Positions 28,160 through 61,195 of a stretch of DNA of 61,195 nt are shown here, piece by piece. The DNA comes from a virus. Where the stretch lies: positions 1 to 61,195 of IMG/VR virus record IMGVR_UViG_3300029448_000030. One strand, 5' to 3'. A model generated the notes under the pieces. It did no database searches and had not been told where the DNA came from. It worked only from the letters and a program-made list of their open reading frames with translations. Position numbers and translations under genes: made by a program. Each line of letters begins with the position of its first letter. Positions within the stretch are counted from its first letter, which is position 1.

Positions 28160-28437
28160 TACTTTGATCTACCTTCTGCAAAACCTCTAAAGGTTTTTTC
28201 TTTTTTAACTTCTTCTTTTGGCTTATCTTCTAACATATTTTTTTCTTCTTCAATTCTATTAAGTATTTCAAAAGCATCAAATATAGCTAGTTTTTTTGTA
28301 GCCGCAGCATTCTTTAATCTATCCGCTGATATATCATCGTCTGAATCAACAATTGGTTCTTTAGCTACTTTGATTAGCTCGTCTACCGCTACTTGCCCAG
28401 CTTGGATTATATTCTTCTTGGTTTCTTTTATTTTCAT
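28159..28437 (-). CDS. Putative terminase small subunit (92 aa)
   Basis: Short, helical and charged: Lys-rich start, a central acidic Asp-Ser-Asp-Asp-Asp patch and a second helix with Ile-Phe-Asp-Ala-Phe-Glu-Ile-Leu-Asn-Arg-Ile. It lies immediately upstream of the large terminase, the usual place for TerS. Its 5' end overlaps the 208-residue gene by 77 bases in another frame, which is long for this genome. TerS proteins are poorly conserved, so the call rests on position and size. Confidence 0.45.
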   Translation of the reverse strand: MKIKETKKNIIQAGQVAVDELIKVAKEPIVDSDDDISADRLKNAAATKKLAIFDAFEILNRIEEEKNMLEDKPKEEVKKEKTFRGFAEGRSK

Positions 28438-28987
28438 ACTTAATTACAATATCATTTGATTTCATACAATAAAGACGCTCACCATCTATAATAAACTCCC
28501 ATTCTCCATATGGAGTATAACCCACTGTGTCTTCTGGGTATATTCCCTTGTCTTCTAAGGAACTATTACTATATTTTAGTATACCTATAAGCTTTTGTTC
28601 TTTTTCACTGCTTAGAGATGAATTGTTCTTTAGTGGTTTTATGAAACATCTATCATTAAAAGTATTCCAAATATCATTTTGTTTATATAAATATATTTGA
28701 TCTGGTTGACAAAAATATAAATCATCTTTAAACCATGATCTACTTTTTTTTCTTTTACCTTTAGTATCATAAAAAACTCTAAAAACATTTTGATGAACTA
28801 TAATAATATCTCCTACATTTATAGGAGTATAATAAGCTAATGGACATGTTTTAACTATCGCGTACCTGTTAACAAACTTAAAGCTTTCAATTTTAGAATT
28901 TAAAATTAAACTCTTATCTTCTATTTGAATCTCATTATTATATGTTTCACCCAGAGGTTCTACGATAAAATCATATAAACTTTTCAT
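28361..28987 (-). CDS. Hypothetical protein with possible tandem GroES-like folds (208 aa)
   Basis: Two segments resemble co-chaperonin strands. The first (about 3-105) has Phe-Ile-Val-Glu-Pro-Leu, Val-Gly-Asp-Ile-Ile-Ile-Val and a closing Gln-Ile-Tyr-Leu-Tyr; the second (about 108-187) has Asp-Arg-Cys-Phe-Ile-Lys-Pro-Leu, Asp-Thr-Val-Gly-Tyr and a closing Met-Lys-Ser-Asn-Asp-Ile-Val-Ile. GroES has the same order of an opening strand, a GD-turn and a closing xDIxxI strand. This would be in addition to the separate GroES gene at 36.8 kb. The similarity is weak and judged by eye; an unrelated beta-barrel is possible. Confidence 0.45.
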   Translation of the reverse strand: MKSLYDFIVEPLGETYNNEIQIEDKSLILNSKIESFKFVNRYAIVKTCPLAYYTPINVGDIIIVHQNVFRVFYDTKGKRKKSRSWFKDDLYFCQPDQIYLYKQNDIWNTFNDRCFIKPLKNNSSLSSEKEQKLIGILKYSNSSLEDKGIYPEDTVGYTPYGEWEFIIDGERLYCMKSNDIVIKYENKRNQEEYNPSWASSGRRANQSS

Positions 28988-36372: not shown

Positions 36373-36819
36373 TTATCTATTTTTATCTGTATTTACACTA
36401 TATATAGAAGTTCTTAAAACCTTATTACTATATGTATTTTTTCTCATTATAATATTTCTTCTTTCACTTGTTGGTATATCTTCATATCCTAACATTATTT
36501 TATAAATTTTATTTATAAGTTGTTTAGCTTTAAAAGAAATTTTATATATATTATACTTTTGAGTAGTTCTATTTCTATGTCTCCATACTACTATCCAGTC
36601 ATTTTTTATTAATTTATTCCATCTTTTTTTATTCCAACTATAACTATATGTTCCTAGTTTAAAATCTTTTATCGTGAATAAATCTATACAATCTAGGTAT
36701 ATTAATAATTCTACTTCAGCACCAGTTATATCGTTGTTTTTGGAAGCCCATCTTCGTATTATACGGTAATGTTTAAGCAGGTTAAGATCTTTTAAATCTC
36801 CTGCGTCTAGCCTTTTCAT
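36373..36819 (-). CDS. Putative winged-helix (MarR-like) DNA-binding protein (148 aa)
   Basis: Residues about 12-95 read like a winged helix: Leu-Leu-Lys-His-Tyr-Arg-Ile-Ile-Arg-Arg-Trp-Ala, Ala-Glu-Val-Glu-Leu-Leu-Ile-Tyr-Leu, then a recognition-helix-like Lys-Lys-Arg-Trp-Asn-Lys-Leu-Ile and a wing with Trp-Arg-His-Arg-Asn-Arg. The C-terminal part is basic and helical with Ile-Pro-Thr-Ser-Glu-Arg-Arg-Asn. It overlaps groES by 4 bases. It may regulate late transcription or bind virion DNA; direct evidence is lacking. Confidence 0.55.
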   Translation of the reverse strand: MKRLDAGDLKDLNLLKHYRIIRRWASKNNDITGAEVELLIYLDCIDLFTIKDFKLGTYSYSWNKKRWNKLIKNDWIVVWRHRNRTTQKYNIYKISFKAKQLINKIYKIMLGYEDIPTSERRNIIMRKNTYSNKVLRTSIYSVNTDKNR

Positions 36820-37076
36820 AAAACAACGACCACATCTTGTGATTTTATAACATGGTAAGTATTATCTTCTACCTCAATTTTATGTCCAGCGTGACGATCA
36901 AAATAAATAACATCATTTTTGTTTAATCCATTTATCTCATCACCTACAGATAAAACCTTAGCTTTTGTATACCTAATGTCTTCTTTATGTTTTTCAGCAA
37001 GTAACAAACCACCTTTAGTTTTCGTAGTTCCTTGTTTAGCTTTTTCTATTATTAAATTTCTACCTATTGCTTTCAT
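36816..37076 (-). CDS. groES: GroES co-chaperonin (86 aa)
   Basis: Phage-encoded co-chaperonin that caps GroEL. The start chosen is the ATG at 37076 rather than the preceding TTG. The mobile loop is visible as Lys-Thr-Lys-Gly-Gly-Leu-Leu-Leu (about 19-26), followed by Ala-Lys-Val-Leu-Ser-Val-Gly-Asp-Glu and the closing Ser-Gln-Asp-Val-Val-Val-Val-Leu. Length (86) is close to the usual 95. The start overlaps the groEL stop by 17 bases, so the order is groEL then groES, the reverse of most bacterial operons. Expected to act in the cytoplasm on capsid or tail proteins. Confidence 0.88.
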   Translation of the reverse strand: MKAIGRNLIIEKAKQGTTKTKGGLLLAEKHKEDIRYTKAKVLSVGDEINGLNKNDVIYFDRHAGHKIEVEDNTYHVIKSQDVVVVL

Positions 37077-38616
37077 CAACTCTTAAATTATTAATTACAC
37101 AATCTGTAGATAAAATAGTAGTAGCTACGGAAGCTGCATTTTTTAAAGCGCTTTTAGTTACTAATAAAGGATCTATAATTCCTGCTTTAACCATATTAAC
37201 AACTTCGCCAGTTAAAACATTTACTCCATGTCCATCTTCAGCTGGAATTGTTATTTGTTCTGAACCCGCATTTAATAAAATAGTTTTATACGGTGACAAT
37301 ATAGAAGCAGTTAATACTCTTTCTCCTTTATTTTTTTCATCTACTTTCATTGCTGCATTTAATAAAGCAACTCCCCCACCGGGAACTATACCTTCTTTTA
37401 TTGCAGCTTTAGTTGCACAAATAGCGTCTTCTGCTCTGTCGAGTTTTTCTTTTAACTCTACTTCAGAATTAGCACCTATTTTAACAACAGCTATTTTAGC
37501 AGCTAATCTTGCTAATCTTTTTTCTAAACTTATAATTTGGTCTGGAATCTTACAAGTTTTTAATTCTTTTTTTAACTCTTTAATTATAGAGAGTGTTTCA
37601 GGTTTAGTTTCCTGAATTTGTATTATGGTTTCATCTTGATTTGTAACACTTTTAGAACAAGTGCCTAAGAAATCAATATTTATAACATCCATATCATCTC
37701 CTAAATCTTCGTTTATTACTACTGCATTAGTTAGTAAAGCAATATCATCTAAGATTTGTTTTCTATTTATTCCTAATACAGGCGCCTCAATTACATTGAC
37801 TTTTATATTGCCTTTAGTTTTATTCATTGCTAACGCTGTTAAAACATCAGGTTCTAAGTCACCTATAATTAAAAGAGATTTTTTGTTTTTAATAACATAC
37901 TCTAATATTCCTTGTATCTGTCTAATATTAGATACTTCAGAATCAATAATAAGAACAACTGGATTATCTAGTTCAGCAGTCTTTTTTTCTTTATTTGTTA
38001 TAAAATGAGGACTAACAATACCTTTTGGATACTGAGCTCCATCTATTATTTCTACTTTAGTTTCTCCTGAAACTGAAACCTCCATCATAACAACTCCTGT
38101 TTTATCTACTTCTCTAAAAGCATCAGCTATTAGTTTTCCTAAAACTTTATCATTGTTTGTAGATATAGTAGCTACATTATCTAGCATTTTATCTTCTACA
38201 GGTATAGATATACTATCTAAATATTTTAATACTTCTTCAACAGCTGTATTTATACCTTCTTTTATTTCTCTTACATTTTTCTTATCTAATATACCATAAG
38301 CTTGCTCTAACATTGCATGAGCTAATACTGTAGCAGTTGTGGTACCATCTCCAGCTTCTTGTACAGTTTTTTTAGCAGCTTGTTTTAATAAGGTAGCACC
38401 CATGTTTTCCACTGGATCTCTTAATATTATATTTTCAGCTACTGTTACACCGTCTTTTGTAATAATAGGATTACCTCCTCCATCTTCAAGTATCACACAC
38501 TTACCGCTAGCTCCAAGTGTGGAGCTAACAGCTTTAGTGAGTTTTTCAATACCTTCAAATATTTTTGTCCTAGCTTCGTCACCGAAGTTAAGATTTTTAA
38601 CTATCATATTTGACAT
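37060..38616 (-). CDS. groEL: GroEL chaperonin (518 aa)
   Basis: Full-length type I chaperonin subunit. ATP-site residues are present: Asp55 in Ile-Thr-Lys-Asp-Gly-Val, Gly-Asp90-Gly-Thr-Thr-Thr, and the Asp in Ala-Glu-Asp-Ala-Ile with the later Val-Pro-Gly-Gly-Gly-Val-Ala-Leu-Leu. The bacterial C-terminal Gly-Gly-Met repeat tail is missing and the apical region is slightly shorter than in E. coli (548 residues). Together with its own GroES it could form a complete folding machine for phage proteins. The leader has AATTT repeats. Acquisition from a bacterial host at some time is likely but ancient, since codon use matches the phage. Confidence 0.95.
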   Translation of the reverse strand: MSNMIVKNLNFGDEARTKIFEGIEKLTKAVSSTLGASGKCVILEDGGGNPIITKDGVTVAENIILRDPVENMGATLLKQAAKKTVQEAGDGTTTATVLAHAMLEQAYGILDKKNVREIKEGINTAVEEVLKYLDSISIPVEDKMLDNVATISTNNDKVLGKLIADAFREVDKTGVVMMEVSVSGETKVEIIDGAQYPKGIVSPHFITNKEKKTAELDNPVVLIIDSEVSNIRQIQGILEYVIKNKKSLLIIGDLEPDVLTALAMNKTKGNIKVNVIEAPVLGINRKQILDDIALLTNAVVINEDLGDDMDVINIDFLGTCSKSVTNQDETIIQIQETKPETLSIIKELKKELKTCKIPDQIISLEKRLARLAAKIAVVKIGANSEVELKEKLDRAEDAICATKAAIKEGIVPGGGVALLNAAMKVDEKNKGERVLTASILSPYKTILLNAGSEQITIPAEDGHGVNVLTGEVVNMVKAGIIDPLLVTKSALKNAASVATTILSTDCVINNLRVDESNR

Positions 38617-47068: not shown

Positions 47069-47314
47069 ATGAAAAACACAAAAGTAAATGTATTACAAAC
47101 AAAAAGATTTGTGATACGTAAAAGTCTAATCGGCAAGAATACTGTAATCGTATTCACTAATCACAAGAATGAAGAATGTAAGTACAATCACGATGTAGTT
47201 TACAATCAATTGAAAGATAAGTTCGAGTCAATGAATTGCTTTCAGAAGTATTCAAGTTATACTAATAGTAAGAATCTACCGAAGTTTGTTAGAGAATTAA
47301 AGTCAATTGTATAA
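47069..47314 (+). CDS. Early protein, paralogue A of a tandem pair (81 aa)
   Basis: Basic protein with Lys-Arg-Phe-Val-Ile-Arg-Lys-Ser-Leu-Ile-Gly-Lys-Asn-Thr-Val-Ile near the start, a Tyr-Asn-His-Asp-Val-Val-Tyr-Asn-Gln-Leu helix and Pro-Lys-Phe-Val-Arg-Glu-Leu at the end. It is about 70 percent identical by eye to the next gene. It has its own promoter-like element and its own terminator, so it is transcribed alone. The function is unknown; as the first gene entering the host in this arm it may act on the host. Confidence 0.75.
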   Translation: MKNTKVNVLQTKRFVIRKSLIGKNTVIVFTNHKNEECKYNHDVVYNQLKDKFESMNCFQKYSSYTNSKNLPKFVRELKSIV

Positions 47315-47419: not shown

Positions 47420-47453
47420 CACGGACTTACGTTATTTTAATGTGGATACTATA
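47420..47453 (+). promoter_or_regulatory. Early promoter element 2 (CACGGACTTA-N15-GATACTATA)
   Basis: Boxes at 47420-47429 and 47445-47453. The downstream gene begins at 47476, 22 bases later, which also argues against a start at 47440 for that gene because this would lie upstream of the promoter box. Confidence 0.7.
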
Positions 47454-47475
47454 TTCGAATTTTAAAAATATAAAA

Positions 47476-47718
47476 ATGAAAAACACACAAGTAAAATTAG
47501 TAACAAAGAGATTTGTCATTAGAAAGTCTCTAATTGGTAAAAACACAGTAATAACTTTTACTAATAAAAACAATGAGAAATGCACTTATAATCATGACAT
47601 AGTGTATAATCAACTAAAAGAGAAGTTTGACAATATGCCTTGCTTCAATAAATATGGTAATTATACTAACACTAATAACTTACCAAAGTTTGTTAGAGAT
47701 TTGAAGAAATTAGTATAA
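47476..47718 (+). CDS. Early protein, paralogue B of a tandem pair (80 aa)
   Basis: Start chosen at ATG 47476 because the preceding possible ATG lies inside the promoter element and the resulting N-terminus (Met-Lys-Asn-Thr) matches paralogue A. The protein conserves Lys-Arg-Phe-Val-Ile-Arg-Lys-Ser-Leu-Ile-Gly-Lys-Asn-Thr-Val-Ile and the C-terminal Leu-Pro-Lys-Phe-Val-Arg-Asp-Leu. As with A, a terminator follows immediately. The pair arose by tandem duplication of the whole promoter-gene-terminator unit. Function unknown. Confidence 0.75.
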   Translation: MKNTQVKLVTKRFVIRKSLIGKNTVITFTNKNNEKCTYNHDIVYNQLKEKFDNMPCFNKYGNYTNTNNLPKFVRDLKKLV

Positions 47719-52414: not shown

Positions 52415-52484
52415 TATAGAAGGAATATGTGTTATAGTATTTGTTGTAGCTTATACTATAATAGTAAATAAATTATATGAATAA
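52401..52484 (+). CDS. Possible membrane micropeptide (27 aa)
   Basis: Very short frame overlapping the end of the acidic gene and the start of the sigma-factor gene. It is almost entirely a hydrophobic helix (Ile-Cys-Val-Ile-Val-Phe-Val-Val-Ala-Tyr) with a basic start. It is too short for certainty, but hydrophobic helices rarely arise by chance in-frame between two genes. Confidence 0.35.
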   Translation: MIKNNIEGICVIVFVVAYTIIVNKLYE

Positions 52485-53001
52485 TAGATTAGGAGAAATA
52501 TTTAAAAATAACTACGGAGATGTCTTTGCTGTTATATATAATAAAACAAAGAATAAACATTTGGCACACGAAATAGTTCAAAGAACTTTCTTTAAATTAT
52601 TAAATAGTAAATCTAAACCTAAAGATACTAAGCTACTGTCATATGTGATAGTAGCTGCAGGTACTACATTGTTAGACCATTATAGATCGCTTAAAACTAG
52701 AAGAAAAAATCTAGATGAAAATAGATATGACGAAAATATTTTAGACATGTTGGATAATAACCTATCAATTGAAGACGTTATAATACTGAATGATAATAAT
52801 AAATTAATTAAGAAATTAATTGATTCTTTATTACAAGAACAAAAAGATATTATAATATATAGGTATTATAAACATATGACGTTTAAGCAGATAGCTAAGA
52901 AAACAAATGTAAGTATTAATACAGCTTTAGGTAGACATAGATATGCTATTAATAATTTAAAGAAATTAGCACACGGACTTGATATAAATAACTTTAGATA
53001 A
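52477..53001 (+). CDS. ECF-type sigma factor (174 aa)
   Basis: Two-domain sigma factor of group IV form. Region 2 (about 10-80) contains Asn-Lys-His-Leu-Ala-His-Glu-Ile-Val-Gln-Arg-Thr-Phe-Phe-Lys-Leu; region 4 (about 118-170) contains Tyr-Tyr-Lys-His-Met-Thr-Phe-Lys-Gln-Ile-Ala-Lys and Ser-Ile-Asn-Thr-Ala-Leu-Gly-Arg-His-Arg. It lacks regions 1 and 3. A promoter-like element lies in its last codons. It would redirect host RNA polymerase to phage promoters; which ones is unknown. Confidence 0.82.
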   Translation: MNNRLGEIFKNNYGDVFAVIYNKTKNKHLAHEIVQRTFFKLLNSKSKPKDTKLLSYVIVAAGTTLLDHYRSLKTRRKNLDENRYDENILDMLDNNLSIEDVIILNDNNKLIKKLIDSLLQEQKDIIIYRYYKHMTFKQIAKKTNVSINTALGRHRYAINNLKKLAHGLDINNFR

Positions 53002-53008: not shown

Positions 53009-53506
53009 ATGAATATATTTTATTTACATTCCGACCCAGTTAAAGCTGCACAAGTACAATACAATAAACATGTAGTAAAAATGATACTTGAATCAGCTCA
53101 AATGCTTTGTACAGCTCACCATCATTATGGTGCTGGAGATAATGTTCCTTATAAAAAAGCACATTACAATCACCCATCAACAATATGGTGTAGAGAAAAT
53201 AATAAACAATATAGATGGTTATTTAATCACATGTTAGCTTTAGGTTCAGAGTATACTAAAAGGTATGGTAGAAAGCATGTGTCAATAGATAAATGTTTTG
53301 GTCCACTATCTTTCTTACCACCTAATATACCCACAGATAAAGAATTTAAAGAACCTCCGCAGTGTATGCCTGATAAATATAAAGTTCCTGGTTGTAGTAT
53401 TACAGCGTATTGGAATTATTATGAAGGTGAAAAATATTTAATAGCATCATCAACAGAACAATTAATAACTAGACACAAACTATATGGCACAGAGAAAATT
53501 ATATAA
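53009..53506 (+). CDS. Conserved phage protein, pyrimidine-dimer glycosylase-like (165 aa)
   Basis: Begins Met-Asn-Ile-Phe-Tyr-Leu with Asp-Pro, then Asn-Lys-His-Val-Val-Lys-Met-Ile-Leu-Glu-Ser-Ala-Gln-Met-Leu-Cys-Thr-Ala-His and later Asn-His-Pro-Ser-x-Ile-Trp. I know this pattern from a widespread family in marine phages that is often annotated as pyrimidine dimer DNA glycosylase; biochemical support for that name is limited. It could repair or process DNA. It is driven by promoter element 7 and overlaps a possible small gene at its end. Confidence 0.6.
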   Translation: MNIFYLHSDPVKAAQVQYNKHVVKMILESAQMLCTAHHHYGAGDNVPYKKAHYNHPSTIWCRENNKQYRWLFNHMLALGSEYTKRYGRKHVSIDKCFGPLSFLPPNIPTDKEFKEPPQCMPDKYKVPGCSITAYWNYYEGEKYLIASSTEQLITRHKLYGTEKII

Positions 53507-53885: not shown

Positions 53886-54497
53886 ATGAATAATCGCAAT
53901 ATAGATTGGTTGGTTAAACATCGAATTGTATTTAAACGAGATCCTATAACAGATATACCTACAATTGAAACCCATCAATACAAGTATTATGAGAATGGGA
54001 CATATGAGTGTTATCATCTATTTAATAGTAAGGCTAAAATTACTACATATAAATCGTTAAAGTGGCACTTCTTTGTATTATATTATCTTAATATGGATAA
54101 TATAATAAACTCTGACTTTGTTACTTTATCTAGATTTATAGCTAATAAAGATAATGGATTTGTTACGTTTTTTATTAAAAACAAACTATTAGAAGATATT
54201 ATTAGAGATGTATTACAACAAGGTGGAGAGCCTCCAAAAAATAAACTAAGGAAGATAATATTTAAGATGTCTACAGGGTTATCTACTAGGGAAAAGTTAT
54301 CAATTGTAGGTAAATTAATTGGTAGAAGCAAAGTATCTCAAGAAGATATTTATAACACTATGATATGTATGTCTGATTCAGAAAAGATAACAATAAGTAA
54401 ACTAGCTAAGACATTAAAATGTTCTACTAGAACTATACATAGACGCATGAGTAATGATTTAAAATTAGAAAAAGAAAGATTAAATGAAGAAATATAA
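53886..54497 (+). CDS. Helix-turn-helix protein between the sigma factors (203 aa)
   Basis: The C-terminal 45 residues contain a helix-turn-helix: Ile-Ser-Lys-Leu-Ala-Lys-Thr-Leu-Lys-Cys-Ser-Thr-Arg-Thr-Ile-His-Arg-Arg-Met. A helical region (about 125-160) precedes it; the N-terminal half is Tyr/His/Lys-rich without a recognised fold. The end overlaps the second sigma factor by 14 bases, so the two are coupled. A regulator of phage transcription is plausible. Confidence 0.65.
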   Translation: MNNRNIDWLVKHRIVFKRDPITDIPTIETHQYKYYENGTYECYHLFNSKAKITTYKSLKWHFFVLYYLNMDNIINSDFVTLSRFIANKDNGFVTFFIKNKLLEDIIRDVLQQGGEPPKNKLRKIIFKMSTGLSTREKLSIVGKLIGRSKVSQEDIYNTMICMSDSEKITISKLAKTLKCSTRTIHRRMSNDLKLEKERLNEEI

Positions 54498-55233
54498 TAT
54501 TTCTAATTACGTTAGGTATAAAGAAGATCTAAAAAGATCTATGCCTAAAGATAAGTTCTATGATTATTATACACGAGATGAACTTATTATAAAGTTTTTA
54601 CCTTTAGTTGAGGCAATGGCTAGAAAATTCTCTACAGATAGTAGAGCGTGTGGAGTATTAACAATAATGGATTTAATACAAGAAGGAAGTATTGGATTAG
54701 TTAAAGCTGTTGATAAACTTGATTGGTTGTTATTAAGTGATTCAGAAGATATAGAAAAAACATTAAAATCTTTTTTCTCTAAAAGAATAAAAGGAGCAAT
54801 AAGAAGAAGAATAGATATGTTAAGAGGTACAATGCGTATTCCTGAACATAAGATGAATGAAATGCGTAGTAACCCTAAAGATAAAAAAATGGTAGCTATG
54901 TTTTTTAATAGTATATTTTTATCAATAGATAACAATAGCAATGTAGATGAGAATATGATGTATGAAATTCCAGATAAATCTGAACCATATAATATACAGT
55001 TAATGAATGTGTATTTAAAAAGTTTAATGGTAAAACATTTAAATGAAAATGAATATGAAGTATTAAGATTAAGTTATGGTTTAGACTGTGATAAATACTC
55101 AGCTAAAGAAATAGCTGAAGAATTAAAAATAGTAGGACCGAGTGCTTATGTTAGAGTTTCAGAGCTAAAAAAGCAAGCGGTACAAAAACTTATAGATAAT
55201 GTAGATCACTCGCAAGTGCTTGATTATCTGTAG
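54484..55233 (+). CDS. Sigma-70-family RNA polymerase sigma factor (249 aa)
   Basis: Region 2 core: Leu-Pro-Leu-Val-Glu-Ala-Met-Ala-Arg-Lys-Phe, then Met-Asp-Leu-Ile-Gln-Glu-Gly-Ser-Ile-Gly-Leu-Val-Lys-Ala-Val-Asp-Lys-Leu-Asp, close to the RpoD/RpoS form. Region 3-like basic part Lys-Gly-Ala-Ile-Arg-Arg-Arg-Ile, and region 4 with Tyr-Glu-Val-Leu-Arg-Leu-Ser-Tyr-Gly-Leu and a helix-turn-helix near the end. Much shorter than host primary sigma (no region 1.1). It probably directs middle or late transcription by host polymerase, possibly including the long leftward block. Confidence 0.85.
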   Translation: MKKYNISNYVRYKEDLKRSMPKDKFYDYYTRDELIIKFLPLVEAMARKFSTDSRACGVLTIMDLIQEGSIGLVKAVDKLDWLLLSDSEDIEKTLKSFFSKRIKGAIRRRIDMLRGTMRIPEHKMNEMRSNPKDKKMVAMFFNSIFLSIDNNSNVDENMMYEIPDKSEPYNIQLMNVYLKSLMVKHLNENEYEVLRLSYGLDCDKYSAKEIAEELKIVGPSAYVRVSELKKQAVQKLIDNVDHSQVLDYL

Positions 55234-57273: not shown

Positions 57274-58986
57274 ATGATAGAAAACCAAGAGATCAATGGA
57301 TTCTTGATTGACACGTTCAATCAATATAACCTAGAAGTGGGTAAGAAACAAGGGATTTGTCCTTTATGTTCTCACACTAGAAAACCCAAAAATCAGAAAG
57401 CTAAATGTTGCTCTTATGATTGGGAACGGGGTCTCGGTACTTGTCATAATTGTAATACTACTTTACAACTACATACTTATCAACGCAAAGGAGCATCAGA
57501 TAAAGATTATGTAAGACCAGAAATAACTAAATATCTTTGTGTAAAAGATAAAGTTACTGAATGGTTTGAAAGTAGAGGTATATCTCAACAAACCTTAGAC
57601 GAACTTAAAGTTGGTCAAGGTTCTGAGTATATGCCACAAACTGGGAAGTCTGAGAACACTATACAATTTAATTATATAATTGGCGATCAACTTATTAATA
57701 TTAAATATAGAGATGGTCGTAAGAATTTTAAACTATATAAAGGAGCAGAGAAAATATTTTATAATATTAATAGTGTTATAGGATATGACAGTTGCATTAT
57801 AACTGAAGGTGAAATGGACGTGTTAGCGTTACATGAAGCTGGAATTAAAAATGTTATATCAGTTCCAAATGGAGCAACACTAACTCATAATAATTTAGAT
57901 TACTTAGATAATTGTATAGATTATTTTGAAGGTAAAACTAAAATAATATTAGCAGTAGATACAGATGAACCTGGATTGGCTTTAAGATCAGAATTAGTTA
58001 GACGATTAGGAGCTGAAGTTTGTTTTTTAGTAGACTTTAAAGAATGTAAAGACGCTAATGAATATTTAATAAAACATGGCAAAGAAAAATTACAAGAGTG
58101 TATTACAAAAGCGAGGGCCTATCCCCTCGAAAATGTCACAACGTTCAAAGACATTGAGGGAGACGTTACAGATTTTGTCAAGAACGGATTCAAGCCTGGA
58201 TTCCAGGTCGGTTTACCAAACTTTGATAGAATTTTTTCAACGTATACCGGTCAGTTTATTACTGTTACTGGGATACCTAGTAGCGGTAAGTCTGATTTTG
58301 TTGACCAAATGGTTGTAGGTTATAATGCAAATTATAACTGGAAAACAGCTTTTGCTTCACCAGAAAATGCACCTAACTATTTACATGCTCATAAGTTGAT
58401 GAGAAAAGTCTGGGGTGATATGCCTAGACGAGACGATATTGGCGGAGCTAAATGGAATGAAGTTGCTGACCACGTAAATGATAATTTCTTTTTTATTGAT
58501 ATGGAAAGATATACTCTTGAATCTGTATTACGTAAAGGAGCAGAGCTAGTTAAACGTAAAGGTATTAAATGTTTAGTTATTGACCCGTTTAATAAAGTTA
58601 GAGATAAAAATGCTACATCTATAGATGTTAATATATATACTATGGAGTATCTTACTAAAATAGAAAATTTTGCTAAGAAATATGATGTGTTAGTTTTTAT
58701 TGTAGCTCATCCAACTAAAATGTATAAAGATAAAGACGGTAAGATTGAAGAACCTACTATGTATAATATTAAAGGTGGTGGTGAATGGTATGATGCTAGT
58801 TATCACGGCTTGTTAGTACATAGAGATTATGAACTTAAAAATACTAAAGTTAAAGTTCTTAAAGTTAAATTCCAAAATCTTGGAGATAATGGAGCTGAAG
58901 CTTTCTTTACGTGGGAACCTAATTCAGGTAGTTTTATACCACAAGTAACTGATGTTATAAATAATGAGCCAATGCCTTGGGAATAA
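57274..58986 (+). CDS. Primase-helicase, T7 gp4-like (570 aa)
   Basis: N-terminal zinc ribbon with Cys29, Cys32, Cys57 and Cys60; TOPRIM primase core with Thr-Glu178-Gly-Glu-Met-Asp182 and Asp229-Thr-Asp231; C-terminal DnaB-type helicase with Walker A GIPSSGKS (333-340) and Walker B Leu-Val-Ile-Asp437. The order zinc - TOPRIM - helicase is that of T7 gp4 and Twinkle. It would unwind DNA 5' to 3' and make primers at the phage fork. It follows the SSB-like gene by 3 bases. No DNA polymerase is seen yet; one is expected beyond the window. Confidence 0.92.
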   Translation: MIENQEINGFLIDTFNQYNLEVGKKQGICPLCSHTRKPKNQKAKCCSYDWERGLGTCHNCNTTLQLHTYQRKGASDKDYVRPEITKYLCVKDKVTEWFESRGISQQTLDELKVGQGSEYMPQTGKSENTIQFNYIIGDQLINIKYRDGRKNFKLYKGAEKIFYNINSVIGYDSCIITEGEMDVLALHEAGIKNVISVPNGATLTHNNLDYLDNCIDYFEGKTKIILAVDTDEPGLALRSELVRRLGAEVCFLVDFKECKDANEYLIKHGKEKLQECITKARAYPLENVTTFKDIEGDVTDFVKNGFKPGFQVGLPNFDRIFSTYTGQFITVTGIPSSGKSDFVDQMVVGYNANYNWKTAFASPENAPNYLHAHKLMRKVWGDMPRRDDIGGAKWNEVADHVNDNFFFIDMERYTLESVLRKGAELVKRKGIKCLVIDPFNKVRDKNATSIDVNIYTMEYLTKIENFAKKYDVLVFIVAHPTKMYKDKDGKIEEPTMYNIKGGGEWYDASYHGLLVHRDYELKNTKVKVLKVKFQNLGDNGAEAFFTWEPNSGSFIPQVTDVINNEPMPWE

Positions 58987-59238
58987 ATGCCAAGAATAAA
59001 GAAAAACAAAATGGGTCAGTATATGCCAACTACTGATGAGTATAAAGCTTATCATTGGTGTATAAACAATATGATATATATATCACCTTTCGCAAGTGGT
59101 GAAGGAACATGGTATATTGACATACAAATAAATAATAAAAAACATAGATCTCCAGAGACATACGGTTCTGTAACTATATGGATTAAGATTTATGAATATT
59201 ATAAATACTATTATATTAAATATGCGAACAAAGTTTAG
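58987..59238 (+). CDS. Small hypothetical protein (83 aa)
   Basis: Basic and Tyr/Ile-rich with Tyr-Lys-Ala-Tyr-His-Trp-Cys-Ile-Asn-Asn-Met and beta strands in the middle, ending in a Tyr-Tyr-Lys-Tyr-Tyr-Tyr helix. The first codon directly follows the primase stop codon and the end overlaps the next gene by 17 bases. No family recognised. Confidence 0.6.
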   Translation: MPRIKKNKMGQYMPTTDEYKAYHWCINNMIYISPFASGEGTWYIDIQINNKKHRSPETYGSVTIWIKIYEYYKYYYIKYANKV

Positions 59239-59875
59239 AAATGCAGAAGAAGCTTACAACTATTTTCTTGATAAAATTATAGTTGATGGTATACCTCAGG
59301 GAGATACTAAAGCTTTATTCAATATAGGATTTACCATGAATAAACCTATGGAAAATTATATAGTAAACGAAGAACGTAATTGGAAATTAAGATATGCAGA
59401 AGCTGAATGGGAATGGTATTTATCAGGTGATTCTAATATTAAAAAATTAGGAGATATATATGGTAAAGTACCAGCGATATGGGAACGTATGGCTGACAGT
59501 GAAGGATATGTTAACTCAAATTACGGATGGCAATGGCAAAGACAAGACCAAATAGATTATGTCGTTGCTAAATTAAGAAACCAAATAAAAACCAATAAAC
59601 CAACAAGACATGCAGCGATTTCAATTTACGACGCTAAGGAGTGGCGTCAATATAGTAAAGATACTCCTTGTACTTACGCAGTACAGTTTTATATATTACA
59701 TAATGCATTAAACATGTGCGTTGTGATGCGTTCTAATGATCTCTGGTACGGCTTCTGTAATGATCAGTATCAGTTTTCATCATTACAAAAAATGATTGCA
59801 GATATGTTGTCTATTGATGTAGGAACATATTATCATTTTGCTCACAACTTACACTTATATAATAATAAACTCTAA
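59222..59875 (+). CDS. Thymidylate synthase-family enzyme, probable dCMP hydroxymethylase (217 aa)
   Basis: Start at 59222 is preferred over an upstream in-frame Met. Family signatures: catalytic Cys150 in Thr-Pro-Cys-Thr-Tyr-Ala-Val-Gln-Phe, Arg170-Ser in Met-Arg-Ser-Asn-Asp, and His-Asn-Leu-His-Leu-Tyr near the C-terminus. The position that selects dUMP (Asn177 in E. coli) corresponds to Asp181 in Gly-Phe-Cys-Asn-Asp, as in T4 dCMP hydroxymethylase (Gly-Phe-Arg-Asn-Asp). Upstream Ser-Asn-Tyr-Gly-Trp also matches T4 gp42. The chain is shorter than TS (264) and near T4 gp42 (246). Product would be 5-hydroxymethyl-dCMP, with methylene-tetrahydrofolate. Assignment by motif only. Confidence 0.75.
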   Translation: MRTKFRNAEEAYNYFLDKIIVDGIPQGDTKALFNIGFTMNKPMENYIVNEERNWKLRYAEAEWEWYLSGDSNIKKLGDIYGKVPAIWERMADSEGYVNSNYGWQWQRQDQIDYVVAKLRNQIKTNKPTRHAAISIYDAKEWRQYSKDTPCTYAVQFYILHNALNMCVVMRSNDLWYGFCNDQYQFSSLQKMIADMLSIDVGTYYHFAHNLHLYNNKL

Positions 59876-60666
59876 TGTATTACATATATCATATACCAGG
59901 AAAAAAAATAGGTGTTACTCGTAATTTAAAAAACCGTGTTACATTAATGCAAGGTTATAAAAAAGGAGAATACGAGGTATTAGAAACACATGAAGATATA
60001 GATTATGTATCTAAAAGAGAATTAGAGTTACAAAATGATTATGGTTATAGAATAGATAATAAATCATATAAAGAATTAGTTAATAATAATAATAAAAAAA
60101 TGAATGTAAACATCACAGAGCAAACTACTACATTTCCATGTCCAGTTAATAAGCTTAAAGGACAGTTGATGGATAATTTAGATATGAGCTGGAAAACACA
60201 ACACGGTATATTTACGCTAGATAAATATATGGTTACATGGATAATGGATAACGCTAGAGTATCTATGTATAATAATGACAGAAGCTATGTATATAATAAA
60301 GCATTAGCTGAGTGGTTTAATGAACGAAATAGTTTAGAATCTTTAATTGATTATGGTGATAATATAGAAAGGATAGAGATATTTAATAAAATAAGATATT
60401 GGGCTAAGACTAGAGGATTGTTTGATGAAGGAGATACTAAAACTCAATATATTAAATTACAAGAAGAGGCAGGTGAATTAGCTAAAGCATTATTAAAACA
60501 TGATGAATTAGAAGTAATAGATGCTATTGGTGATATGGTAGTAGTATTAACTAATCTAGCTCATATACAAGGAGTGAGCATAGAAAGGTGTATAGCATGT
60601 GCTTATGATGTAATCAATAAGCGCACAGGTAAAATGATTAACGGAACATTTGTAAAAGATGAATAA
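59875..60666 (+). CDS. Fusion of GIY-YIG-like domain and MazG-type pyrophosphohydrolase (263 aa)
   Basis: Residues 1-68 resemble a small GIY-YIG nuclease: Tyr-Tyr-Ile-Tyr, Gly-x-Thr (13-15), Arg21 and Glu49/51 in a Lys-Arg-Glu-Leu-Glu helix. Residues 185-255 are MazG-like: Leu-Gln-Glu197-Glu198-Ala-Gly-Glu201-Leu-Ala-Lys and Glu213-x-x-Asp216-x-x-x-Asp220, then Arg-Cys-x-x-x-Ala-Tyr-x-Val-Ile-Asn-Lys-Arg. The linker (about 80-170) is unrecognised. MazG enzymes cleave dNTPs or ppGpp. The gene shares one base with the previous stop and its neighbour is the dCMP hydroxymethylase-like gene, so a dCTP-removing role like T4 gp56 is possible. Confidence 0.7.
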   Translation: MYYIYHIPGKKIGVTRNLKNRVTLMQGYKKGEYEVLETHEDIDYVSKRELELQNDYGYRIDNKSYKELVNNNNKKMNVNITEQTTTFPCPVNKLKGQLMDNLDMSWKTQHGIFTLDKYMVTWIMDNARVSMYNNDRSYVYNKALAEWFNERNSLESLIDYGDNIERIEIFNKIRYWAKTRGLFDEGDTKTQYIKLQEEAGELAKALLKHDELEVIDAIGDMVVVLTNLAHIQGVSIERCIACAYDVINKRTGKMINGTFVKDE

Positions 60667-60970
60667 TTATAACGTAAAGACTGAAGATAAAATCGTACAA
60701 CAAGTTATCGAAAAGATAGATCAACGTAGTCTGGTTGGTCAAGCTAAGTACGGTGCAATGATGATGGAAGAAGTTGAAGGCAAAGATAAAGACTTAAACG
60801 ACTTTCTAATCGATGTACAAGAAGAAATAATGGATGCATTGTTATACATACAAGCAGCAAGAGCTTGCTTACGTGATGAAATTGAAGAAGCAATGCTCAA
60901 CCGTATGAACATTATTGGTCAAAACGGTAATGACGGATTACATTATGAAGAAGAAGAGAACGAATTATAA
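60659..60970 (+). CDS. MazG-like/nucleotide pyrophosphohydrolase-related protein (103 aa)
   Basis: All-helical protein with Arg-Ser-Leu-Val-Gly-Gln-Ala-Lys-Tyr-Gly followed by Asp-Phe-Leu-Ile-Asp-Val-Gln-Glu-Glu-Ile-Met-Asp-Ala-Leu-Leu-Tyr-Ile. The Gly-x-x-Lys-Tyr-Gly plus Glu-Glu-x-x-Asp-Ala pattern is common in phage proteins of the all-alpha NTP pyrophosphatase superfamily. The C-terminus is very acidic. It overlaps the preceding gene by 8 bases and the next gene starts inside it. Confidence 0.6.
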   Translation: MNNYNVKTEDKIVQQVIEKIDQRSLVGQAKYGAMMMEEVEGKDKDLNDFLIDVQEEIMDALLYIQAARACLRDEIEEAMLNRMNIIGQNGNDGLHYEEEENEL

Positions 60971-61195
60971 AAGAAAACGCGGACCTGTACAAGCAAAGAA
61001 GGTAACGTACGACGGTATCAAATTTGCTTCAGGTCTTGAGCGTTATATGTATCAAGCTCTTAAAAAAGCTAAGATCAAAGCTAAATACGAAGGTAAAACT
61101 TATGAAATAGTTTCTGGTTTTGACTTTATACATCCATCGTTTGAAAGAACTGCTAATGGTAAAGGAGAGTTTAAACAACGTGGTGGTAAAAAAAT
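60945..61195 (+). CDS. T7 endonuclease I-like Holliday-junction resolvase, 3' end outside window
   Basis: Begins at ATG 60945 inside the previous gene and is open to the window edge (83 codons). After a basic N-terminus it has Phe-Ala-Ser-Gly-Leu-Glu-Arg, then a helix and Ile-Lys-Ala-Lys-Tyr-Glu-Gly-Lys. T7 endonuclease I has Phe-Arg-Ser-Gly-Leu-Glu at its active-site glutamate with a similar following helix and Phe-Glu-Tyr-Glu. The remaining catalytic residues (Asp, Glu-x-Lys) would lie beyond the edge. Expected to cut branched DNA during replication and packaging. Confidence 0.7.
   Translation, partial: MKKKRTNYKRKRGPVQAKKVTYDGIKFASGLERYMYQALKKAKIKAKYEGKTYEIVSGFDFIHPSFERTANGKGEFKQRGGKK

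Follow-up and report, generated by a model that had tools for sequence, protein, structure and literature searches.

In phage T4, gp56 removes dCTP and endonuclease II cuts unmodified DNA, and T4-type pathways require a dNMP kinase. The gp56 dCTPase is linked to MazG proteins through the all-alpha pyrophosphatase superfamily, and XP12 provides an example of a dCMP methylase. The available text of PMC6400193 gives the hydroxymethylase signature as a Ser-x-Tyr motif and an Asp at the third position ahead of the catalytic Cys, and describes the C-terminal tail as missing from T4 gp42. In the accessible part of PMC8670742, Asp177 and position 147 split the thymidylate synthase (TS)-family proteins of modified and unmodified virome contigs, an Asn-to-Asp change alone converts thymidylate synthase to a dCMP methylase, and Asp-type phage homologues of thymidylate synthase have already been linked with modified cytosine in environmental viromes. 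Excerpts of two further sources state that the CMP hydroxymethylase MilA carries Lys133 and Ala176 (PMC5175136) and that 5-hydroxy-dCMP synthase and dCMP hydroxymethylase are homologous (PMC13390438). Among the papers listed for the open-licence PMC literature, none deals with the hydroxymethylase of the phage clade described here, and a search on AfhB/HY126 yielded no relevant paper.

The window (the whole stretch analysed, 61,195 nucleotides of IMG/VR virus record IMGVR_UViG_3300029448_000030) probably encodes a T4-gp42-like, folate-dependent deoxycytidylate 5-hydroxymethylase, the product of which would presumably enter phage DNA and blind restriction enzymes. By its terminase the window clade is related to Elemovirus, Pachyviridae and Pervagoviridae, and the phage has relatives among viruses of Flavobacteria. 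The gene belongs to a conserved module (Table 1) with the order ERF annealing protein, exonuclease VIII-like protein, small protein, primase-helicase, small protein, hydroxymethylase, MazG fusion, 103-aa protein and DUF1064 protein, followed in relatives by ribonucleotide reductase. The MazG fusion gene is directly downstream of the hydroxymethylase in 79 of 81 sources. An in-frame ATG is present upstream of the hydroxymethylase at 59192, and the start tabulated is the family consensus.

Table 1. Features of the hydroxymethylase module and their positions in the window
Feature	Position	Strand	Remarks
Toprim primase / DnaB-type helicase	57274..58986	+	part of conserved replication module
Small conserved protein between primase-helicase and hydroxymethylase	58987..59238	+	related gene in 63/81 sources
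Predicted dCMP 5-hydroxymethylase	59222..59875	+	thymidylate-synthase fold, 217 aa
Codon, catalytic Cys150 (= T4 Cys148)	59669..59671	+	coordinate computed from residue number
Codon, Asp181 (= T4 Asp179, E. coli ThyA Asn177)	59762..59764	+	coordinate computed from residue number
Fusion: GIY-YIG-like N-terminal domain (about 1-60), middle domain, MazG pyrophosphohydrolase domain (about 165-250)	59875..60666	+	
Conserved 103-aa protein, one EExxD motif, not recognisably MazG	60659..60970	+	
DUF1064 protein	60930..61195	+	cut by window end; weakly endonuclease-I-like in one relative

Elsewhere the window encodes two sigma-70-like proteins (52477-53001 and 54484-55233), the second of which is conserved near the module in relatives, and a pyrimidine-dimer DNA glycosylase-like protein (53009-53506; PF03013, 5.3e-5) with relatives on other contigs. 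Adjacent paralogous small proteins (47069-47314 and 47440-47718) belong to a family found in 5/5 relatives examined. Phage GroEL and GroES genes are present at 36816-38616 and 28361-28987, and a second protein matching a GroES family (phrog_13932, 6.7e-21) is encoded next to the terminase.

The hydroxymethylase product matches PF00303 in Pfam (4e-26) and bears the PHROGs label thymidylate synthase, and the best PDB match of the single 217-aa sequence is T4 dCMP hydroxymethylase (1b49, 4.7e-18), with GFRND as the aligned motif. Asp181 stands within GFCND, where dUMP enzymes have Asn, and its invariance in 81/81 sequences (the window and the best 80 of 530 stretches encoding relatives that passed the IMG/VR scan) indicates that it is not due to chance. 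The original prediction of a thymidylate synthase homologue with Asp as in T4 gp42 is borne out by these matches, and the active-site alignment and structure model agree with it: 17 active-site positions are all identical in the window, phage BF486P2 and T4 gp42, and the AlphaFold model has a pLDDT of 92.7 and a pTM of 0.90. The relatives (best 80 of 530) are 63-95% identical to the window enzyme. The C-terminal tail of thymidylate synthases is absent, the proteins finishing at LHLYN-x-K across the family (81 sequences, the best 80 of 530 and the window). A truncation or frameshift of the gene was rejected, although one HMM alignment runs through stop codons, because the relatives' proteins stop at the same place; judged from these sequences, a short C-terminus is normal for the family and no sign of damage.

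Residues kept in 80/80 loci (the best 80 of 530) are Glu62, Ile86, Trp87, Ser99, Tyr101, Arg129, Asp147, Cys150, Thr151, Ser171, Asp173 and Asp181. They include the folate-handling Glu62, Trp87 and Asp173 (T4 E60, W82 and D171), the hydroxymethylation signature Ser99-x-Tyr101 with Asp147 three residues before Cys150, and the deoxyribose-type pair Arg129 and Ser171. Cys150 is likewise invariant in alignment A1, which comprises the window and 47 of the 80 loci (alignments A2 and A3 comprise 44/76 and 41/78 rows). A profile of 48 relatives matches MilA at 5.5e-23 and T4 gp42 at 6.2e-22, both ranked above thymidylate synthases.

With four rivals tested, residues and profile rank strongly support dCMP 5-hydroxymethylase as the best reading of this sequence. 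The residues speak against CMP hydroxymethylase: MilA is the top profile match but has Lys133 and Ala176 where the window enzyme has Arg129 and Ser171. A flavin-dependent 5-hydroxy-dCMP synthase (RB69 / phage HY126 AfhB; PDB 9iqc, 9iqu), which makes 5-hydroxycytosine for later glycosylation, shares the fold, the dCMP substrate and the Asp, and 9iqc has the highest VIA Z to the model (24.6, tied with MilA at 24.3, with T4 gp42 at 22.2 and thymidylate synthases at 20-21); as modelled, fold alone does not separate the candidate enzymes, this one included. The RB69-type enzyme is moreover annotated as similar to dCMP hydroxymethylase, to which it is homologous according to the part of PMC13390438 available. 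Such an activity is nevertheless improbable here, as in RB69 ORF048c, which is nearly identical to the crystallised protein 9iqc (540 bits), the folate residues are gone (Phe for Glu, Phe-Ile for Ile-Trp, Asn for the pterin Asp) and the water-activating sites are Thr and Glu, whereas the window keeps the T4 residues at all of these. The family profile also scores hydroxymethylases at 81-85 bits and 9iqc at only 54, a GT2 gene is found in 0/48 relatives, and 52 early proteins contain no convincing sugar-transfer domain.

A dCMP methylase of the XP12 kind, producing 5-methyl-dCMP, is quite improbable: the Asn-to-Asp change would suffice to make one from thymidylate synthase (PMC8670742, in the text available), but Ser99, Asp147 and the lack of a C-terminal tail fit hydroxymethylases in a comparison made without any XP12 enzyme. 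A role as thymidylate synthase or dUMP hydroxymethylase, supplying dTMP or hm-dUMP, is very improbable; PF00303 membership, the PHROGs name and the lack of another PF00303 copy in 47/48 relatives would point to it. Against it are the replacement of Asn by Asp in 81/81 sequences (window and best 80 of 530), the absent tail and scores that fall short of all NCBIfam cut-offs for thymidylate synthase (76 bits at best, against 327), and SPO1 gp29 carries Asn and Ala-x-Tyr, unlike the window (read from alignment A5, the SPO1 column being off by one in a larger alignment). A separate observation concerns locus L117 (5498-6214), which is RB69 ORF048c: its annotation names similarity to dCMP hydroxymethylase, yet it is nearly identical to the crystallised flavin dCMP hydroxylase 9iqc; database names in this family are unsafe.

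In the 5-hydroxymethylase reaction proposed by analogy with T4, Cys150 would attack C6 of dCMP, Asp181 would hold and protonate the cytosine, and Glu62 would activate methylene-tetrahydrofolate. With no C-terminal tail present, water placed by Ser99, Tyr101 and Asp147 would trap the exocyclic methylene to give 5-hydroxymethyl-dCMP. Host enzymes would then presumably phosphorylate hm-dCMP and the host replicase would build the product into phage DNA, so that part or all of the cytosine may be replaced and restriction enzymes reading C-containing sites blinded. The adjoining MazG domain may lower competing dCTP, or may merely clean the nucleotide pool.

Two MazG-like neighbours had been predicted, of which one stands. 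The fusion protein has a MazG/PRA-PH domain (PF01503, 2.2e-6 for the window protein), the MazG model PF03819 matches 41/41 relatives scanned, and the residues of the metal sites EExxE and DxxxD (E197, E198, E201, D216 and D220) are invariant in aligned relatives. The 103-aa protein has no MazG match in Pfam or NCBIfam and no PDB match below E 1.6; a MazG match occurs in 1/44 of its relatives (E 0.099), and hhalign gives a probability of 0.8% for its relationship to the fusion. The N-terminus of the fusion looks in sequence like a GIY-YIG-clan domain, with T5orf172 matching in 8/41 and MUG113 in 4/41 relatives (both below cut-off in the window protein), families belonging to that clan. The fusion matches MazG folds at Z 8-9.9; the matches include cyanophage S-2L MazG and mammalian dCTPases, and HisE and others reach equal Z, so the fold does not point to one substrate, nor can this be read from the sequence. 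The parallel drawn with gp56 is weak: a single pairwise BLASTP comparison of T4 gp56 with the fusion gives E 0.70, and MazG/PRA-PH genes are also annotated in elemoF and phi13:2, phages of the same terminase lineage without a PF00303 gene, so that a MazG gene cannot carry the inference of cytosine replacement.

Glycosyltransferase and dNMP kinase genes, for which a search outside the window had been suggested, were not found in relatives. Three Pfam families were scanned in 48 possibly incomplete records, selected on contig size from those behind the 80 loci: GT2 (PF00535) was found in 0/48, the kinase family PF02223 in 0/48 and PolA in 1/48. Walker-A patterns revealed no P-loop kinase in the window, which stops just past the module and may lack genes, or in five relatives searched end to end, apart from the helicase and chance motifs, and none near the hydroxymethylase gene across the 80 loci (best 80 of 530). 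For sugar transfer, 52 early proteins of the five relatives that had no other assignment were scanned with Pfam; the only candidate was GT87 at 0.0075, taken as chance. With no kinase, no GT2 and, in 47/48, no PolA found in relatives, the conversion of hm-dCMP to hm-dCTP would by default fall to host kinases. JmjC and cupin domains occur among the 52 early proteins. One relative, G036, encodes after ribonucleotide reductase (L106:996-2936) a KDO-8-phosphate synthase (2.1e-93) and a KDO cytidylyltransferase-like protein (1.7e-33, below cut-off), an instance of sugar genes in a hydroxymethylase phage. A second PF00303 copy was present in 1/48 records, G005, a 77-kb contig on which two hydroxymethylase copies (loci L007 and L016) have diverged from each other, with 75% and 73% identity to the enzyme of the window.

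Modification of cytosine would be expected to relax the avoidance of restriction sites that contain C. Four-bp palindromes were counted against a Markov expectation in loci of at least 5 kb (leaving out 5, 7 and 3 of 80 in the three main groups and 9/80 in the second lineage), and were called strongly depleted when observed at 20% or less of an expectation of at least 6. In the window and in five relatives, palindromes are near neutral. Loci with one or more strongly depleted palindromes number 1/75 among those with the hydroxymethylase (best 80 of 530), 0/73 in the same terminase clade and 62/77 in the sister clade around MW202828 (TerL loci, best 80 of at least 600 per scan). Pooled observed/expected counts of GATC are 2100/1860, 2560/2506 and 550/3127, respectively. 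In the sister clade (L109 and L107 (MW202828), L206-L276) GATC is purged, with 0 versus 202 expected in MW202828, and often CATG, CTAG and GGCC too; 3/17 longer loci are not depleted. All four metagenomes sampled for both clades show only the enzyme-free clade depleted.

Tests for PF00303 in the terminase clades covered the longer contigs, 25 of 160 TerL loci. The sister clade had the gene in 0/17 records tested, six of them at least 54 kb, and none in MW202828; in the window's terminase clade it was found in 2/8, the six without it being 28-48 kb fragments in which the primase is missing as well. A primase homologue is also absent from the sister clade (0/17 records, none in MW202828), so the whole module differs between the clades and not the enzyme alone. 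The two clades form one split on the TerL tree (100/100), and the palindrome difference is one evolutionary contrast. A second, BF486P2-like lineage of hydroxymethylases, its active site unchanged, shows depletion in 38/71 loci, mostly for GATC and CTAG, which weakens the case for reading modification from palindrome avoidance. Palindromes of A and T only are neutral in every group and therefore provide no control of protection. Phage phi13:2, enzyme-free and with an annotated ArdA, has mild depletion only. Given the single split, the module difference and the depleted second lineage, palindrome relief is taken as support, not proof, of protected DNA in the window clade and is not generalised to the enzyme; the predicted restriction-resistant DNA is supported indirectly by the contrast of the window's clade with its sister, the second lineage being a counter-example.

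Alternatively, the enzyme may be active without its product reaching DNA in amount, host pools being perturbed and unavoided palindromes marking restriction-poor hosts. Kinase, glycosyltransferase and own polymerase are not seen in most relatives and the second enzyme-bearing lineage is palindrome-depleted, as this would allow, but it appears unlikely given that only the enzyme-free clade is depleted in 4/4 metagenomes holding both and that an intact active site is kept in 80/80 relatives (best 80 of 530). A more far-reaching version of the hydroxymethylase reading, decidedly doubtful, would have a widespread clade with bare, unglycosylated 5-hydroxymethylcytosine, in which the minimal kit is the hydroxymethylase and the GIY-YIG/MazG protein (for dCTP removal and the cutting of unmodified DNA) with host kinase and replicase, and in which the gain would have relieved restriction-site avoidance; such a one-chain fusion would combine both jobs that T4 divides between gp56 and endonuclease II. 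If the DNA is hydroxymethylated, these phages would represent a large environmental clade with modified-cytosine genomes and apparently fewer genes than T4, and the sister clade purging GATC, CATG and GGCC would offer a ready natural comparison. The residues show how to tell hydroxymethylases from look-alike 5-hydroxy-dCMP synthases.

Among known systems, T4 gp42 (PDB 1b49, 6a9a) shares the fold, the 17 active-site residues and the missing tail at about 27% identity; the window gene differs in lying in a short replication module with no dNMP kinase or glucosyltransferase seen and in having a MazG fusion, not gp56, as its neighbour. The hydroxymethylases of Bacteroides phage BF486P2 (OP172667) are 41.6% identical over 100% of the length and have the same active site in a different genome, with a dUTPase nearby; related loci are often depleted in GATC/CTAG, and sometimes a small P-loop kinase is encoded upstream. 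MilA (PDB 5b6d), the top profile and Foldseek match, has the cytosine-binding Asp in common and differs at the positions where the window has the Arg and Ser of deoxy enzymes (PMC5175136, in the excerpt available). RB69 ORF048c / AfhB (9iqc) has fold, substrate and Asp in common, but not the folate residues. The D-type enzymes of the Enterococcus/Lactobacillus phages Planchet and ATCCB also share the Asp (34-35% identity), but stand beside an annotated nucleotide kinase, dUTPase and glycosyltransferase in Planchet and an annotated beta-glucosyltransferase in ATCCB, none of which is seen in the window's relatives. The window enzyme would thus be a new instance of the published Asp-type kind, less usual in its apparent minimal kit and in the sharp palindrome contrast between its clade and the sister clade.
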